Virus record (IMG/VR): IMGVR_UViG_3300010354_000762
Span: 1 to 22,120 of that record
Origin: a virus
Length of the DNA: 22,120 bases
Reading direction: 5' to 3' (one strand)
Part shown: positions 1-8,324 of the stretch, in pieces
Numbering within the stretch: the first letter of the stretch is position 1
Layout of the letters: each line of letters opens with the position of its first letter
The notes under the pieces: model-generated
Database searches by the model: none
What the model was told of the DNA's origin: nothing
The model's input: only the letters and a program-made list of their open reading frames with translations
Translations under genes and position numbers: made by a program

Positions 1-468
1 GGTATCACCATTCACAAGACGGAAACCGCCGATCAAATCGTCTTCATCAGTCTCAATCGTGATGTTAACACGAATGAGTTCACGTTTCAGTTGAGCACAA
101 GCTTGTTCAACACCGAAAGTTTTTCCGTTACCAGAAAGACCAGTGATGAACACAGGGTAAAACTGACGAGAAGAAATAACCTTTTTAAGATCACTAAAGT
201 TACCAAAGCTGACGAAGGAAGCATCTTTTTCAGGAACGAAGTTTACAGGATTGAAAGCGGGTTCTACAGCAGGTGCGTGATAAACCTCTTCAAGTTTTTC
301 TGCAACAGTAAGATTCCAAACACCACGACCACTCTTGAATCGATCAAGTTTTTTGGTCAGAGTTTGGTAAGAAATACCAACTTCATCGGAATAAGCACGC
401 AGGTCTGAAGCAACAATAGTTTGACCGAAACGAGTGATGAGGTCAGAGATTTCAAGTTGTTTTGCCAT
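1..468 (-). CDS. cobS: CobS-type AAA+ ATPase, N-terminal 156 residues (runs off left edge)
   Basis: The reading frame opens with ATG at 468-466 and stays open to base 1, so the C-terminal part lies outside the window. The N-terminal ~70 residues look like a helical DNA-binding-like or adaptor segment. A Walker A motif GLSGNGKT follows at about residues 112-119, and then DEDDLIGGFRLVNGDT, typical of the MoxR/CobS branch of AAA+ ATPases. In bacteria CobS is the ATPase of the aerobic cobaltochelatase CobNST, and cobS is a well-known cyanophage gene. Here it lies directly downstream of a VWA-domain gene, the usual partner arrangement for MoxR/CobS ATPases. A near-consensus sigma-70-like promoter precedes it in the 85-bp gap. 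The CobS/MoxR-class assignment is secure; a role in cobalamin synthesis is only one possibility. Walker B and the sensor motifs cannot be seen here. Confidence 0.85.
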   Translation of the reverse strand, partial: MAKQLEISDLITRFGQTIVASDLRAYSDEVGISYQTLTKKLDRFKSGRGVWNLTVAEKLEEVYHAPAVEPAFNPVNFVPEKDASFVSFGNFSDLKKVISSRQFYPVFITGLSGNGKTFGVEQACAQLKRELIRVNITIETDEDDLIGGFRLVNGDT

Positions 469-502
469 TATCAAAAAGCGATGGGTCGTTTGTTACCTTG
501 TA

Positions 503-531
503 ATTATAGATGGGATTGGGGGACAGGTCAA
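503..531 (-). promoter_or_regulatory. Sigma-70-like promoter ahead of cobS
   Basis: Reading leftward, TTGACC (531-526) is followed by a 17-bp spacer and a perfect TATAAT (508-503). The expected start near 496 would leave a leader of about 28 nt before the cobS ATG at 468. A 6-bp inverted repeat, GGATTG (513-518) and CAATCC (529-534), overlaps the -35 and spacer and could be an operator or a weak hairpin in the upstream transcript. No late box is seen here, so cobS probably can be expressed by host RNA polymerase. Confidence 0.65.
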
Positions 532-553
532 TCCTCCAACCCATTAGCAAATT

Positions 554-2749
554 TTATGAGATCAGACTAGCAAAAGAAGAAAGAACCTTTTTGTTAATAC
601 TCTTAGACTTTTGAGATTTAACAAAAGCATCTTTCAACTTGGAAGTTTCTACTACAGTTGTAGAAAAATCATAATTACTAGAAAGACTATTTGAGTGCAT
701 CACATAGAGAGATTTGTAACCACAATTTTTAAATTCAACAGATTTTTCTTTTTTCCATTGTTTTTGATAAACTTCATAATCATCTTCAATATATTCTTTA
801 TTATCACTGTAGATAGAATACATATCACGACTGGATGCAAGTCGAATACCAATCAAATTAACATCGGGGAATCTATCAGAAACAGAATCCAAGAAAATTT
901 TAGTAGTTTTTGTACAACAACCATACATACCAAAGAAAGGATAAACACGACCAGTCTTACGATCCCGAAGAACACAGTTATCAGTAAGCGAATATGAATT
1001 AATCCTACCGTAACTAGATTTATGACTCACAGAATCTGCAGTCCTACCAATAGATTGTGCCTCACCATCAGTCAAAATAATAACATTAGTTTTTTGACAC
1101 TTAGTTTTATTTTTAAATTGAGGAATCAATTCATGCAAAGTAACAATAGATTCATTCAGAGGTGTACCAGATAGATAATAACCATTAGGAGAACACAAAC
1201 AACTTCCACGCATAGAAGATGCGAGTCTCCACAGATTACGAAATTGAGTTTCAATATCTACCTTTGAAGTAGAACTAATCACATTCAAAAGATTGAAGTT
1301 ACTAGATACGTGAATTTGATTTGGTTGAAACTCTTGATGTTCTGATGGACGAATACGAGTTTGAGTATCAAAATCGAAATTATTGTAATAAGAATAATCG
1401 TTAGTAAAACAATAAACGTCAAAAGGTACTTGAACTTTACGACAGAACCAAAGAAGATTCATCAATTGTTGTACAGTGTCCATAAGGATATTACCCATAG
1501 AACCAGACCAATCAAGAATAAACATCAATCCGTGATTTTTACCATCAGGAGTGACAGTAATTTTTTTGAAAAGATCTTCATTCCATTTGTAAGTGGTCAG
1601 TTTGGAAGTATCCAGAACACCAGTTTTAGCAACACTTGCACGAGCATATTGATCTGCAGATTTACGCATTTCAAATTCTTTTACAAGATAATTGACTTCT
1701 CGTTGAGAATTTTTTCTAAAACTGATATATTTTTTATCAACCTGTTCTAGTGACTTTGCGGACTGTGGTTGCCAACATGTATTCAATTGTTCAGTAATTT
1801 TTTCAACAGGAATAATAATATTATCTAGATTAAGTTTGGGAATTTCCAAATACAATGGATCACGGGTGGTTTTAGTAATAAATTGTTTCTGAGATTGATT
1901 AAAAGCTTGATCAGTTTCAGATTCAATATTTACATCTGGTTGAGGACAATTATCACCAAAAGTACCAGCAGATTTATTATCACCAGTTTCAAATTCTTCA
2001 GGAGAAGAATTGTCTGGATTGTTGGGTTGACTTTCAGATTCACCAGAAAAATCAGGTTGAGATTCCGAAGATTGTGGTTGAGATTCACCAGAAAAATCAG
2101 GTTGAGATTCCGAAGATTGTGGTTGATTATCTTGATAGGAAGATCCAGAAGAATCGGATTTTTGATCCGAGACTTGAGGATCTTCAAATTTATCGAGTTC
2201 GTGTTCCTTGGTATAATCAAGAATTTTACGAGCTACATCAACTACATCTTCAAATGTCTCAGACTTTTCTACAAGTTCGACAAGTTGTTTTTCCTTTTCA
2301 TTGAAAGGAATTAGTGCATTTGCATGAATACCAACTTTAAAATAAAGATTGATACGGTCAATCAAAGTATAAGTATTGAATTCCCTATTTCCAGTCTTGA
2401 AAAAATCTTTTTTGTACAGTTCTACATATGCAGTATAAAAATTACGAGCAAGACCAGGAAATTTTTTCTTCATCATTTTTTCAATCCGTGCATCTTCAAT
2501 TACATTGAGATACGATTGAGGAATACCTTGTGGTTTTGAATAGTCAATAGGAGTAAACAATGCATGTCCAACTTCATGACCCACAAGCATATCATAAACT
2601 TCACCAGAAGCAGTGTCCCAAACAGGCAGTGTAAGAATACGATTCTTGATATCGAACGATGCTGTCTCAACACTGCGGTGTTCTACTACGAGGTTTTCCG
2701 TAGCAAGAAGACGAGCAAGATTTCCTTTGACTTCGATGTTTAGGGACAC
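554..2749 (-). CDS. HExxH metallopeptidase-like / VWA domain protein (CobT-like partner of CobS)
   Basis: 731 residues, starting at GTG (2749) with a strong GGAGG five bases upstream. The N-terminal domain carries HEVGH at residues 58-62 (HExxH zinc motif) and NVIEDARIE at 82-90, whose E85 is a plausible third zinc ligand, as in gluzincin-type peptidases. Residues about 190-280 are an acidic Ser/Gln/Pro/Glu linker with a perfect 15-residue tandem repeat (209-238). The C-terminal part is a VWA domain: ILDWSGSMG at 411-419 gives the MIDAS DxSxS, and IILTDGEA further on fits a later VWA strand. The layout (N-terminal domain, acidic linker, VWA) resembles CobT, and cobS follows directly. It probably works with the CobS ATPase as an AAA+/VWA machine. 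Whether the peptidase site is active, and on what, is unknown. It has its own sigma-70-like promoter. Confidence 0.75.
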   Translation of the reverse strand: MSLNIEVKGNLARLLATENLVVEHRSVETASFDIKNRILTLPVWDTASGEVYDMLVGHEVGHALFTPIDYSKPQGIPQSYLNVIEDARIEKMMKKKFPGLARNFYTAYVELYKKDFFKTGNREFNTYTLIDRINLYFKVGIHANALIPFNEKEKQLVELVEKSETFEDVVDVARKILDYTKEHELDKFEDPQVSDQKSDSSGSSYQDNQPQSSESQPDFSGESQPQSSESQPDFSGESESQPNNPDNSSPEEFETGDNKSAGTFGDNCPQPDVNIESETDQAFNQSQKQFITKTTRDPLYLEIPKLNLDNIIIPVEKITEQLNTCWQPQSAKSLEQVDKKYISFRKNSQREVNYLVKEFEMRKSADQYARASVAKTGVLDTSKLTTYKWNEDLFKKITVTPDGKNHGLMFILDWSGSMGNILMDTVQQLMNLLWFCRKVQVPFDVYCFTNDYSYYNNFDFDTQTRIRPSEHQEFQPNQIHVSSNFNLLNVISSTSKVDIETQFRNLWRLASSMRGSCLCSPNGYYLSGTPLNESIVTLHELIPQFKNKTKCQKTNVIILTDGEAQSIGRTADSVSHKSSYGRINSYSLTDNCVLRDRKTGRVYPFFGMYGCCTKTTKIFLDSVSDRFPDVNLIGIRLASSRDMYSIYSDNKEYIEDDYEVYQKQWKKEKSVEFKNCGYKSLYVMHSNSLSSNYDFSTTVVETSKLKDAFVKSQKSKSINKKVLSSFASLIS
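2036..2126 (-). repeat. 45-bp tandem repeat, two perfect copies, in the VWA-protein linker
   Basis: Two adjacent identical 45-bp units (2036-2081 and 2081-2126 share the same phase) encode the 15-residue unit QPQSSESQPDFSGES twice. The repeat lies in the acidic, probably disordered linker between the peptidase-like and VWA domains. Because 45 is a multiple of three, copy number could vary without breaking the frame. Confidence 0.9.
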
Positions 2750-2775: not shown

Positions 2776-2804
2776 ATAGTAGGACCATATGGCACCCATG
2801 TCAA
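2776..2804 (-). promoter_or_regulatory. Sigma-70-like promoter ahead of the VWA-protein gene
   Basis: In the 61-bp gap after gene 46, a perfect TTGACA (2804-2799) is followed by a 17-bp spacer and TACTAT (2781-2776). The predicted start near 2769 gives a ~20-nt leader containing the GGAGG that precedes the GTG start. The -10 matches only four of six consensus bases, but the perfect -35, exact spacing and intergenic position support it. Confidence 0.55.
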
Positions 2805-5844: not shown

Positions 5845-6318
5845 TCACTTCCTCGATTTAGATTCTAACTGTTCCTTAATTGTATTCATTAAAGAACTAT
5901 CATATCCCATAAGACTGGAATCTGCAGTAAAAACTTCATCAAATCCAGACTTTTCTAAAAGTCTAGCTTTAATCTCTAGTTGTTTCTTCTCTTTTTGAAT
6001 ACGTCTCAAAAAAGCGTAATAGATAATTTGAGTAAAATAAGCAAATGGATTACTTGATTTTGCTGGATCAAAATTATCTATGTATTGTAAGCAATTCTCA
6101 ATGCCGTCACAAATCATGTCATCCTTAAACATATAGTTGACAAAATTTGGTTTATAGGATAAATGTGTTGCAATCTTTAGAAAGCAAGATCCTATATAAT
6201 TCGGAACTCTAGGTCTCTCTAGACCTTCTTCCTTGGCATTAAGAACATCTTTCTTATATAAAATTAGAGCTTCAAGAAACTCTCTATTATTAACGTAATG
6301 TTCTTTCTTAGCGGCCAT
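5845..6318 (-). CDS. 55: gp55 late-transcription sigma factor
   Basis: 157 residues (T4 gp55 is 185). Residues about 67-113, from DDMICDGIENCLQYIDNFDP through FAYFTQIIYYAFLRRIQKEK, match the sigma-70 region 2 core-binding and -10-recognition helices kept in gp55-type sigma factors; there are no clear regions 3 or 4. It directs host RNA polymerase to TATAAATA-type late promoters, several of which lie upstream of the head and tail genes in this window. The C-terminus is polar and may contain the sliding-clamp contact used by T4 gp55, but I cannot identify it firmly. It is preceded by a 117-bp gap with a sigma-70-like promoter and followed after four bases by gene 47. Confidence 0.93.
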   Translation of the reverse strand: MAAKKEHYVNNREFLEALILYKKDVLNAKEEGLERPRVPNYIGSCFLKIATHLSYKPNFVNYMFKDDMICDGIENCLQYIDNFDPAKSSNPFAYFTQIIYYAFLRRIQKEKKQLEIKARLLEKSGFDEVFTADSSLMGYDSSLMNTIKEQLESKSRK

Positions 6319-6343
6319 ATAAGTACGAATAATATATGCGTAT

Positions 6344-6372
6344 ATTTTAACACACTATTTACACAATGACAA
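6344..6372 (-). promoter_or_regulatory. Sigma-70-like promoter ahead of gene 55
   Basis: TTGTCA (6372-6367), a 17-bp spacer, then TAAAAT (6349-6344): one mismatch from consensus in each hexamer. The expected start near 6337 gives a leader of about 20 nt to the gene 55 ATG at 6318. A host-type promoter fits the need to make gp55 before late promoters work. It would also serve genes 47, DUF3110-like and 46. Confidence 0.6.
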
Positions 6373-6378
6373 CGGCCC

Positions 6379-6407
6379 TTGACAAGTGCTAAAAAAGTAT
6401 GTACAAT
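6379..6407 (+). promoter_or_regulatory. Sigma-70-like promoter on the opposite (plus) strand
   Basis: A perfect TTGACA (6379-6384), a 17-bp spacer and TACAAT (6402-6407, one mismatch) read rightward. It is back to back with the gene 55 promoter in the same 117-bp gap. Transcription would start near 6414 and run antisense into the Sm-like gene and possibly uvsW; no plus-strand gene follows. It scores as well as the sense-strand sites here, but whether it is used cannot be told from sequence. Confidence 0.45.
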
Positions 6408-6435
6408 AACTATGCCAGAGTTTCAAGATTAGTTA

Positions 6436-6852
6436 TCAGCTATTATCTTTAGATTCTATATTAAGTTTGAAGAGATCCTCTAGTACTGATCTAGCTTCTT
6501 CAATCTTATTTTTAAATCCCATTTCTTTATCAAGGGACAACTGGTTTGAATCTAATTGATTAGCTATCTTTCTTACTGTCACATGATATAGTTGAGCCAT
6601 TTTATCTTCTGGTTCTCCTATACTCATGACTTTTTGTTTATCAATAAAAAATATTGAATCTTTACTGAATTTAAACCAAGGTGTTAGATCTACCTTACAT
6701 GCCATTCCGTAAGGTGTCTCAATTACTTCGCTATCAATTTCAAAAGGATATTCTAACAGAAATCCCTCTTCTTCGGGGTAGGGAACAATTTTAGAAATAA
6801 TCTGTTCCCCTGTAATTAATTTTAAAATACCAAAAAATTGTTCATGTTTCAT
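6436..6852 (-). CDS. Conserved phage hypothetical protein, Sm-like N-terminus
   Basis: 138 residues, cytoplasmic, with no signal or membrane segment. The N-terminal ~75 residues (starting MKHEQFFGILKLITGEQIIS) have the short beta-strand pattern and central GE turn typical of Sm-like folds. The C-terminal ~55 residues are predicted helical and charged. Similar small genes next to uvsW occur in cyanophage genomes as conserved hypotheticals. The ATG at 6852 overlaps the uvsW stop (TAATG), so it is probably co-translated with uvsW, and it is the last gene before the promoter-bearing gap ahead of gene 55. An RNA-related role would suit an Sm fold but is only inference. Confidence 0.7.
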   Translation of the reverse strand: MKHEQFFGILKLITGEQIISKIVPYPEEEGFLLEYPFEIDSEVIETPYGMACKVDLTPWFKFSKDSIFFIDKQKVMSIGEPEDKMAQLYHVTVRKIANQLDSNQLSLDKEMGFKNKIEEARSVLEDLFKLNIESKDNS

Positions 6853-8324
6853 TAATTACTTCCTTTAATATTTACTGGAATAATTTCATAATCAAAATTT
6901 TCTTGTGAATAAATTTTTATTCTTTCTATTAAATGATTTAAAGTATAATTTTTTCTTCCATTCTTTGAAAAATCATCAGCTATGTCATATAGTTGTGCTG
7001 ATTCTTTTTTATCTCCTTTTCTGAGGACTCTACCAATACTTTGGAGGTTTCTAATTCTTGATTTACTAGGGGAAGCAAAGATAACGTTATGTAAATTTCT
7101 AATGTTAATACCAGTAGAAAAAGTGCCGTAAGAAGCAATGATGATAGCATTATCTTCGTCCTCAGTAATGTGTCTAATTTCTTCTCTTTCTGTGGTATCT
7201 GTACCACCATAAACGAAGAATACTTTTCTGTCTTTTGAGACGTAATTATTTATAAGATCGTAAAGTATTTCACCATGTTTCTCGACATAAGAGAAGAGTA
7301 CAAGGGTGTTTCCTTGCATGTCTCGACATAAGTTACGAATAAATTTATTTCTTTGATCACAAGAACAAATATAATCAATTTCTTCTTGGTAAGAATCAAA
7401 TGTAATGTCTTTATGTTTTAATAATAAAATTTTAATTTTTAAATTTGATAAATGCCCTTCATCTATAAGTTTCTTAGTTTCTGTTACTTGTTTTACAGGA
7501 CCAAACAATCCTTCTAGTACCAACTTATTTGTGTTACTTCCGTCAAGTGTTCCAGTAAAACCAATTCTATACTTACAGTTGTGCATCTTATCCATGATAC
7601 CTGTAAGAGATTTTGCTTTAAATAAATGAGCTTCATCTCCAATTACAACATCATATTGTTCAAACCACTTTTTTGGCATTTTATAAATTGATTGCCAAGT
7701 AGTAACAGTCACATCTTTATTAGAAGATTTTTCTTGTCCCGAATAAATTTTATGACAATAAAAATCTCCATCCCAACCATATTTGGAAAAGTCTCCTACC
7801 ATCTGTTCAACCAAAGATGTAGTAGGAACAATAATTAATGTTCTTAAATCTTTTGCAGAATAATACCTTATTAATGAATAAATCATTAATGATTTTCCAG
7901 AAGCTGTTGGAGACACTAACAACTTTCTTATATTTTTAATTGATTCGTAAATTGCTTTGTATTGATAATCTCTGACTGCAAAAGGTATTTGCAAACTCTT
8001 TACAAAATCAACAATACCTTGTGGAGAAACATCATGATCTGTTTCTCCTGGATATCCGTAATATTTGTTATCTAATACTTGATGTGTATATCCTCTTTCT
8101 CCTAACCATTGTACCAAATATTCAAATAATCCGACGTAAAGTTCTCCAGTACCAGGACTGAACAAACGGATTTTTCCATCCCACATACGAGACTTGTATT
8201 GTGGCATGAATTTAAAATTTGGAACTTCAAACGTAAAATATTCTGATAATTCTTTTTTGATGTGTGGTTCGCAAGTTACAGTCAGATATGTTTCGTTCTT
8301 CTTTACAATGGTTACATCAAACAT
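6852..8324 (-). CDS. uvsW: UvsW superfamily 2 helicase
   Basis: 490 residues using the ATG at 8324 (T4 UvsW is 503). I prefer this start to an in-frame ATG at 8354: it forms a TAATG overlap with the uvsY stop, has GGAG seven bases upstream, and gives an N-terminus like T4 UvsW. Helicase motifs are complete: Walker A SPTASGKS at 138-145, DEAH at 230-233, FTGTL at 256-260 and motif VI QSIGRVLRKG at 428-437. The N-terminal segment with the WDGKIRLF pattern (about 48-55) matches the UvsW substrate-binding domain. UvsW unwinds R-loops and branched DNA, moving replication from origins to recombination-driven forks. It lies between uvsY and the Sm-like gene in one transcription unit. Confidence 0.95.
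   Translation of the reverse strand: MFDVTIVKKNETYLTVTCEPHIKKELSEYFTFEVPNFKFMPQYKSRMWDGKIRLFSPGTGELYVGLFEYLVQWLGERGYTHQVLDNKYYGYPGETDHDVSPQGIVDFVKSLQIPFAVRDYQYKAIYESIKNIRKLLVSPTASGKSLMIYSLIRYYSAKDLRTLIIVPTTSLVEQMVGDFSKYGWDGDFYCHKIYSGQEKSSNKDVTVTTWQSIYKMPKKWFEQYDVVIGDEAHLFKAKSLTGIMDKMHNCKYRIGFTGTLDGSNTNKLVLEGLFGPVKQVTETKKLIDEGHLSNLKIKILLLKHKDITFDSYQEEIDYICSCDQRNKFIRNLCRDMQGNTLVLFSYVEKHGEILYDLINNYVSKDRKVFFVYGGTDTTEREEIRHITEDEDNAIIIASYGTFSTGINIRNLHNVIFASPSKSRIRNLQSIGRVLRKGDKKESAQLYDIADDFSKNGRKNYTLNHLIERIKIYSQENFDYEIIPVNIKGSN

Follow-up and report, generated by a model that had tools for sequence, protein, structure and literature searches.

Organization of the locus and its occurrence in phages

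The stretch analysed here (the window) is an entire virus record of 22,120 bases and covers part of a T4-like, cyanophage-type genome. Its genes, named by homology with annotated relatives, are arranged on the minus strand in the order structural genes (gp17–gp23), uvsY, uvsW, gp55, gp47, gp46, a gene for a VWA protein, and cobS (Table 1). The VWA gene begins with a GTG codon located 5 nt after a GGAGG sequence and lies directly upstream of cobS at a distance of 85 bp. The latter gene begins with an ATG codon at position 468, with approximately 156 of some 360 codons inside the record. The HEVGH, E85-D86, and DWSGS motifs of the 731-aa protein, which an earlier note on this DNA had pointed out, were all confirmed at residues 58–62, 85–86, and 413–417, as was the proposed pairing of an AAA+ gene with a VWA gene, the Walker A motif and the MIDAS both being present. 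In the VWA protein, the disordered linker contains a short in-frame repeat, QPQSSESQPDFSGES (window positions ~2030–2120). A CobN-like gene was not found within the 22,120-base record, which says little because the record is a fragment.

Table 1. Features of the VWA–cobS region of the window
Feature	Position	Strand	Basis or remark
VWA zinc-peptidase-like gene, 731 aa	554..2749	minus	phrog_459 / T4-GC 146 'peptidase'
N-terminal zincin-like domain, residues 1–189	2183..2749	minus	conservation and AlphaFold2 (AF2)
HEVGH (58–62) on helix 49–65; N82, E85, D86, and R88 on helix 78–96			AF2 model of the N-domain
Acidic/Q-rich linker, ~residues 190–269	1943..2182	minus	low confidence, pLDDT <50
VWA domain, ~residues 406–731	557..1534	minus	closest solved folds: midasin MIDAS and NorD VWA
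VWA MIDAS residues D413-x-S415-x-S417, T529, D561			DWSGS = 413–417
cobS-like AAA+ ATPase gene	1..468	minus	incomplete at record end; HTH-like N-terminus, Walker A GLSGNGKT
Sigma-70-like boxes TTGACC-17-TATAAT, upstream of cobS	503..531	minus	consensus match only
Sigma-70-like boxes TTGACA-17-TACTAT, upstream of the VWA gene	2776..2804	minus	consensus match only

The 731-aa protein matched phrog_459 ('peptidase') over its full length (731 aa; E = 2e-244); the idea of a peptidase is not new, this annotation of the cyanophage gene being of long standing. Relatives of the VWA protein, each <60% identical, were identified in 463 phage records, nearly all of cyanophages, and the gene order gp47–gp46–VWA–cobS–gp45–gp44 recurs in the majority of annotated relatives, in some of them interrupted by small insertions, with S-CRM01 departing from it. 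Searches for VWA and CobS proteins returned equal record counts (cyanophages, 365/61/24; pelagiphages, 3). An AAA+ gene was present in 127 of the 134 loci (IMG/VR and other loci, some sharing one contig) that have at least 1.2 kb of downstream sequence, and where it follows directly, the median gap between the two genes is 198 bp. These counts bear out the co-occurrence that the earlier note had proposed to survey, and the VWA/cobS pair is present in nearly all sequenced ocean cyanophages. Cyanophages of cluster C have been described as devoid of cobS (PMC10665884). A single-sequence scan of viral contigs gave no match. Most of the relevant contigs labelled bacterial or archaeal (L094–L118) look like cyanophage-type phage sequence binned into metagenome-assembled genomes (MAGs), including a 188-kb cyanophage-type contig in a Nonlabens assembly.

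The N-terminal domain of the VWA protein

The first profile search was seeded with HEVGH, which biased the conservation count, and was repeated with VWA-only seeds. Seven residues, namely H58, E59, H62, N82, E85, D86, and R88, were invariant in all 67 distinct viral homologues with an N-domain recovered by the VWA-only seeds and in 138 of 138 distinct homologues overall, including the four residues (H58, E59, H62, and E85) whose conservation the earlier note had wished to see checked. The spacing between H62 and the invariant E85 is 20–34 residues. Among 90 sequences sharing 22–66% identity, 11 of the 189 N-domain columns are invariant; judged from this alignment, the zincin motif is far beyond chance, because 7 of only 11 invariant columns are zincin-site residues (illustrative random-draw probability, 2e-10). 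In the VWA half, D413, S415, S417, and D561 are present in all 135 sequences that reach them, and T529 is kept apart from its replacement by Ser in two.

With 86 homologues, AlphaFold2 confidently modelled two domains joined by a disordered linker. The structure search with the full-length model was filled by VWA matches and was uninformative on the N-domain, which was modelled separately (pLDDT 88, pTM 0.85). In this model, strands precede the HEVGH helix, which is followed by the adjacent helix with N82, E85, and D86, in the classic order. Foldseek matches of the N-domain to the PDB were individually weak (best E = 0.28), and the first nine were all minigluzincins or ArdC. By VIA, the best 20 rows all belonged to zinc metallopeptidase families with modest scores, i.e. 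ZMPSTE24 (Z = 7.0, the maximum; 3.5 Å over 133 residues), ArdC (6.5), abylysin (6.3), and jannalysin (6.2), with BlaR1 and IrrE/PprI also among these 20. The structure prediction suggested in the earlier note for the 731-residue protein thus yielded a predicted zincin-like fold with HEVGH and E85-D86 on adjacent helices, at modest scores. The fold is common to viral proteins named CobT and to proteins of the haloviruses HHTV-2 and HCTV-2. A sequence search of the PDB returned no credible relative of the VWA protein. The DUF2201_N profile (PF13203), representing a cellular metallopeptidase–VWA family, had no match in the phage protein and none above the cut-off in 100 Proteobacteria. VWA domains working with AAA+ motors (midasin, Z = 15.8; NorD, 15.7) are the nearest matches to the VWA half, and a profile of the CobS-like protein matched midasin, CobS, CbbQ, and NorQ in the PDB.

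On sequence evidence, the VWA/AAA+ pair recurs in unrelated phages. Pairs with HExxH and an acidic second-helix motif were identified in Stenotrophomonas phage DLP6, Ochrobactrum phage OC, Salmonella phage SSU5, Microcystis phage Mae-Yong1326-1, and Vibrio phage JSF27 (second-helix motif, NMVVDHNIE). The archaeal halovirus HHTV-2 carries SHEVQHH and NVLED, with the gene split: separate genes encode the zincin-like N-domain and the VWA domain (L242:416-2989), and the AAA+ gene lies further on (5983-7365). In Stenotrophomonas phage ANB28 (L211:1631-3616), EDVRTE is kept and HExxH is replaced by DREVSTL, so that this phage has naturally lost the site. Chloroflexota also encode VWA proteins with HExGH and LEDxRxER, an intact cellular zincin–VWA family, and at four loci (L119, L197, L198, and L201) a MoxR-like AAA+ gene adjoins the zincin–VWA gene. 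A CobN/ChlH-type protein was absent from 10 of 11 such Chloroflexota genomes, some of which are incomplete MAGs. One of these pairs (L201:5825-9100, genome G099) is located near integrase-, RadC-, and DNA-methylase-like reading frames, which suggests that it resides on a mobile element. No relative of the Ochrobactrum phage protein was found in the plasmids searched.

A zincin fold could bind zinc without peptide cleavage, and the least improbable of the alternatives to a peptidase, itself unlikely, is a non-cleaving MoxR–VWA chaperone in which the zincin-like domain holds a metal structurally or for metal handling and the pair remodels proteins in the manner of NorQD or RavA–ViaA. The resemblance of the two halves to NorD and midasin (VWA) and to NorQ, midasin, and CbbQ (AAA+) is consistent with such a chaperone. 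Because ANB28 lacks HExxH, catalysis would not be required in every lineage, and cellular CobT works without the site. Against this reading, neither E59, the general base, nor D86 varies any more than the metal ligands do, and a metal bound for structural reasons would make no such demand.

Relationship to cobaltochelatase CobS and CobT

The CobS-like protein and cobaltochelatase CobS are homologues (PDB profile, E = 4e-35). AAA_5, the MoxR/dynein-related profile, matched the full-length relative in the isolated cyanophage DSL-LC02 (E = 4.8e-18) and reached 21.4 bits in the incomplete copy of the window (cut-off, 22). Full-length cyanophage relatives scored 64.8 and 70.1 bits against CobS TIGR01650 (cut-off, 558.6 bits), for which CobS of Rhodobacteraceae, the control, scored 558 bits. 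CobS_N (PF12556) was absent from CobS of DSL-LC02 and present in the cellular control. Cyanophage CobS proteins (window 1-468; L002:8218-9297) have instead an HTH-like N-terminus with a weak match to the DUF2089 HTH (E = 0.0018), which is missing from the copy in the Ochrobactrum phage. In the AAA+ tree, which is poorly resolved and contains long branches, cellular CobS groups in a separate clade and the branching order of the viral lineages is unsettled.

HExxH is absent from this domain in all 43 cellular CobT proteins of Proteobacteria, which have RGxxDxxAL, or a sequence close to it, and then a helix of the type AvEQARvEaiG, and CobT of the solved structures likewise has an RGxxDxxAL-type N-domain without HExxH. 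Three divergent proteobacterial CobT-like genes also encode an N-domain without HExxH. One CobT reading frame (L223) does contain a lone HExxH, at position 31, but this was rejected because the protein probably starts further downstream. The window protein scored 12.4 bits against CobT TIGR01651 (cut-off, 759) and 12.7 bits against PF06213 (cut-off, 26.1). Since the hhalign alignment of the viral family with CobT is weak (E = 0.056) and places HExxH ambiguously, the contrast with CobT rests on the absence of any HExxH in the N-domain rather than on a column-by-column alignment. The second half of cellular CobT matches phrog_1576, a viral zincin–VWA family (E = 2e-44), whose member in phage SSU5 carries HEVAH and NALED and also matches phrog_459. 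By these matches, the viral zincin–VWA and CobT families are cousins, with a shared VWA ancestry. Loss of the site in the CobT lineage would be the simpler inference, because bacterial and archaeal viruses alike have an intact site, as do Chloroflexota. The dead CobT-like fold that the earlier note had offered as its alternative is contradicted for this family, as the protein without the site is cellular CobT.

These results bear on the reading held in PMC8651126, where the cyanophage cobT is described as 'mistakenly annotated as a peptidase', and in the literature on cobS as an auxiliary metabolic gene. There, the AAA+ and VWA proteins would replace or boost the small subunits of the host cobaltochelatase and, with the host CobN, raise cobalamin for infection. 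The homology to CobS and the shared ancestry of CobT and the viral VWA proteins agree with it, and CobN would be available: Synechococcus and Prochlorococcus host genomes encode two PF02514 proteins each, which keeps this explanation alive for cyanophages and tempers the earlier note's dismissal of cobalt chelation, otherwise upheld by the poor match to the CobS and CobT models. However, the strictly invariant zincin site is missing from every CobT compared, the phage proteins fall far below the CobS and CobT cut-offs and lack CobS_N, and cells without CobN also carry related intact pairs. We therefore regard a viral CobST as improbable, next after the non-cleaving chaperone. The peptidase reading is favoured because the protein encoded beside cobS keeps an intact zinc-protease site that the true B12 enzyme lacks.

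Expression timing and comparison with known systems

The cyanomyovirus late promoter has been described as NATAAATA (PMC2984593). In the window, gp23, gp22, gp20, and gp18 are each preceded by ATAAATA at a distance of 27–40 nt, and in DSL-LC02 the motif is found upstream of gp22, gp20, gp18, and gp13; in both, the VWA gene, cobS, and the replication genes next to them lack it. Among relatives, the motif stands before only 2 of 131 VWA genes and 3 of 126 cobS genes. The sigma-70-like boxes are strong in the window and show no clear enrichment upstream of these genes in relatives, and are thus given little weight. We infer from the promoter pattern that the pair is probably expressed early or in the middle phase with the replication–recombination genes. 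A late chaperone–protease that processes structural proteins in virion assembly, as proposed for jumbo phages (PMC7824862), has the same domain order, and other phages do use late proteases in head maturation, but it is very unlikely here, because the VWA gene and cobS lack the late promoter carried by the capsid and tail genes, sit between gp46/gp47 and gp45/gp44, and coexist with a separately encoded gp21 prohead protease. The chaperone–peptidase acting on host or virion proteins that the earlier note had envisaged is partly supported, by the pairing, the conserved site, the predicted fold, and the co-occurrence, and its virion targets are disfavoured.

The explanation that we prefer, with a probability of approximately 0.58, is an AAA+ motor with a VWA–zinc-peptidase cofactor, expressed early or in the middle phase and distinct from CobST, for which we infer zinc binding, catalysis, coupling, timing, and substrate. 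The CobS-like protein would be a MoxR/midasin-type AAA+ motor, and the N-terminal domain of its VWA cofactor a gluzincin-type zinc-peptidase domain in which H58, H62, and E85 would bind zinc and E59 would activate water. The MIDAS may dock a partner protein or the AAA+ ring, and an ATP-driven hexamer of the CobS-like protein may present or unfold a bound protein that the zincin domain would clip. Takeover or replication would be the stage at which the pair acts, on a protein complex of either the host or the phage, and neither cobalt insertion nor capsid maturation would be its task.

In T4-like cyanophages, cobS belongs to the core genes; it has been reported to be an auxiliary metabolic gene conserved worldwide (PMC3037559, PMC9301287), and viral control over B12 has been deduced from this. 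Should the pair be a protease-coupled motor, the deduction would fall, and a conserved function in host takeover or replication would become testable through the single residues E59, H58, and D413; an origin for the CobT subunit would be offered as well. The broader proposal, that the virus 'cobS', counted among the most frequent auxiliary metabolic genes in ocean viromes, encodes the motor of an early-acting AAA+-coupled zinc protease rather than a vitamin enzyme and that CobT arose from such a VWA peptidase with loss of its catalytic activity, is put forward tentatively, at somewhat less than even odds.

Compared with known systems, the window protein differs in nothing essential from phrog_459/T4-GC 146 of T4-like cyanophages, which occupies the same place before cobS. 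Cobaltochelatase CobS/CobT (TIGR01650/TIGR01651; PDB 9uka) is likewise a two-gene pair of AAA+ and VWA proteins with distant common ancestry in both subunits, whereas its CobT N-domain has RGxxDxxAL in place of the HExxH of the phage family. Minigluzincins (selecase, abylysin, and jannalysin), M48 peptidases, and ArdC are the top structural matches of the N-domain, but share no sequence similarity with it and differ in domain context. NorQ–NorD, CbbQ, and midasin supply the solved folds nearest to that of the VWA half as well as the profile matches of the AAA+ protein, whereas no relation to the HExxH N-domain was found. The MoxR–vWA pair of group 2.2 jumbo phages (ASV44728/ASV44729; PMC7824862), likened here by its described domain order, has an N-terminal metallopeptidase fused to vWA beside an AAA+ protein; it belongs to another phage group, and the context in the window is early or middle rather than late. 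The two published readings, 'mistakenly annotated' peptidase and metallopeptidase, conflict, and the present data favour the domain reading of PMC7824862 for the cyanophage family, but not its late-assembly timing.
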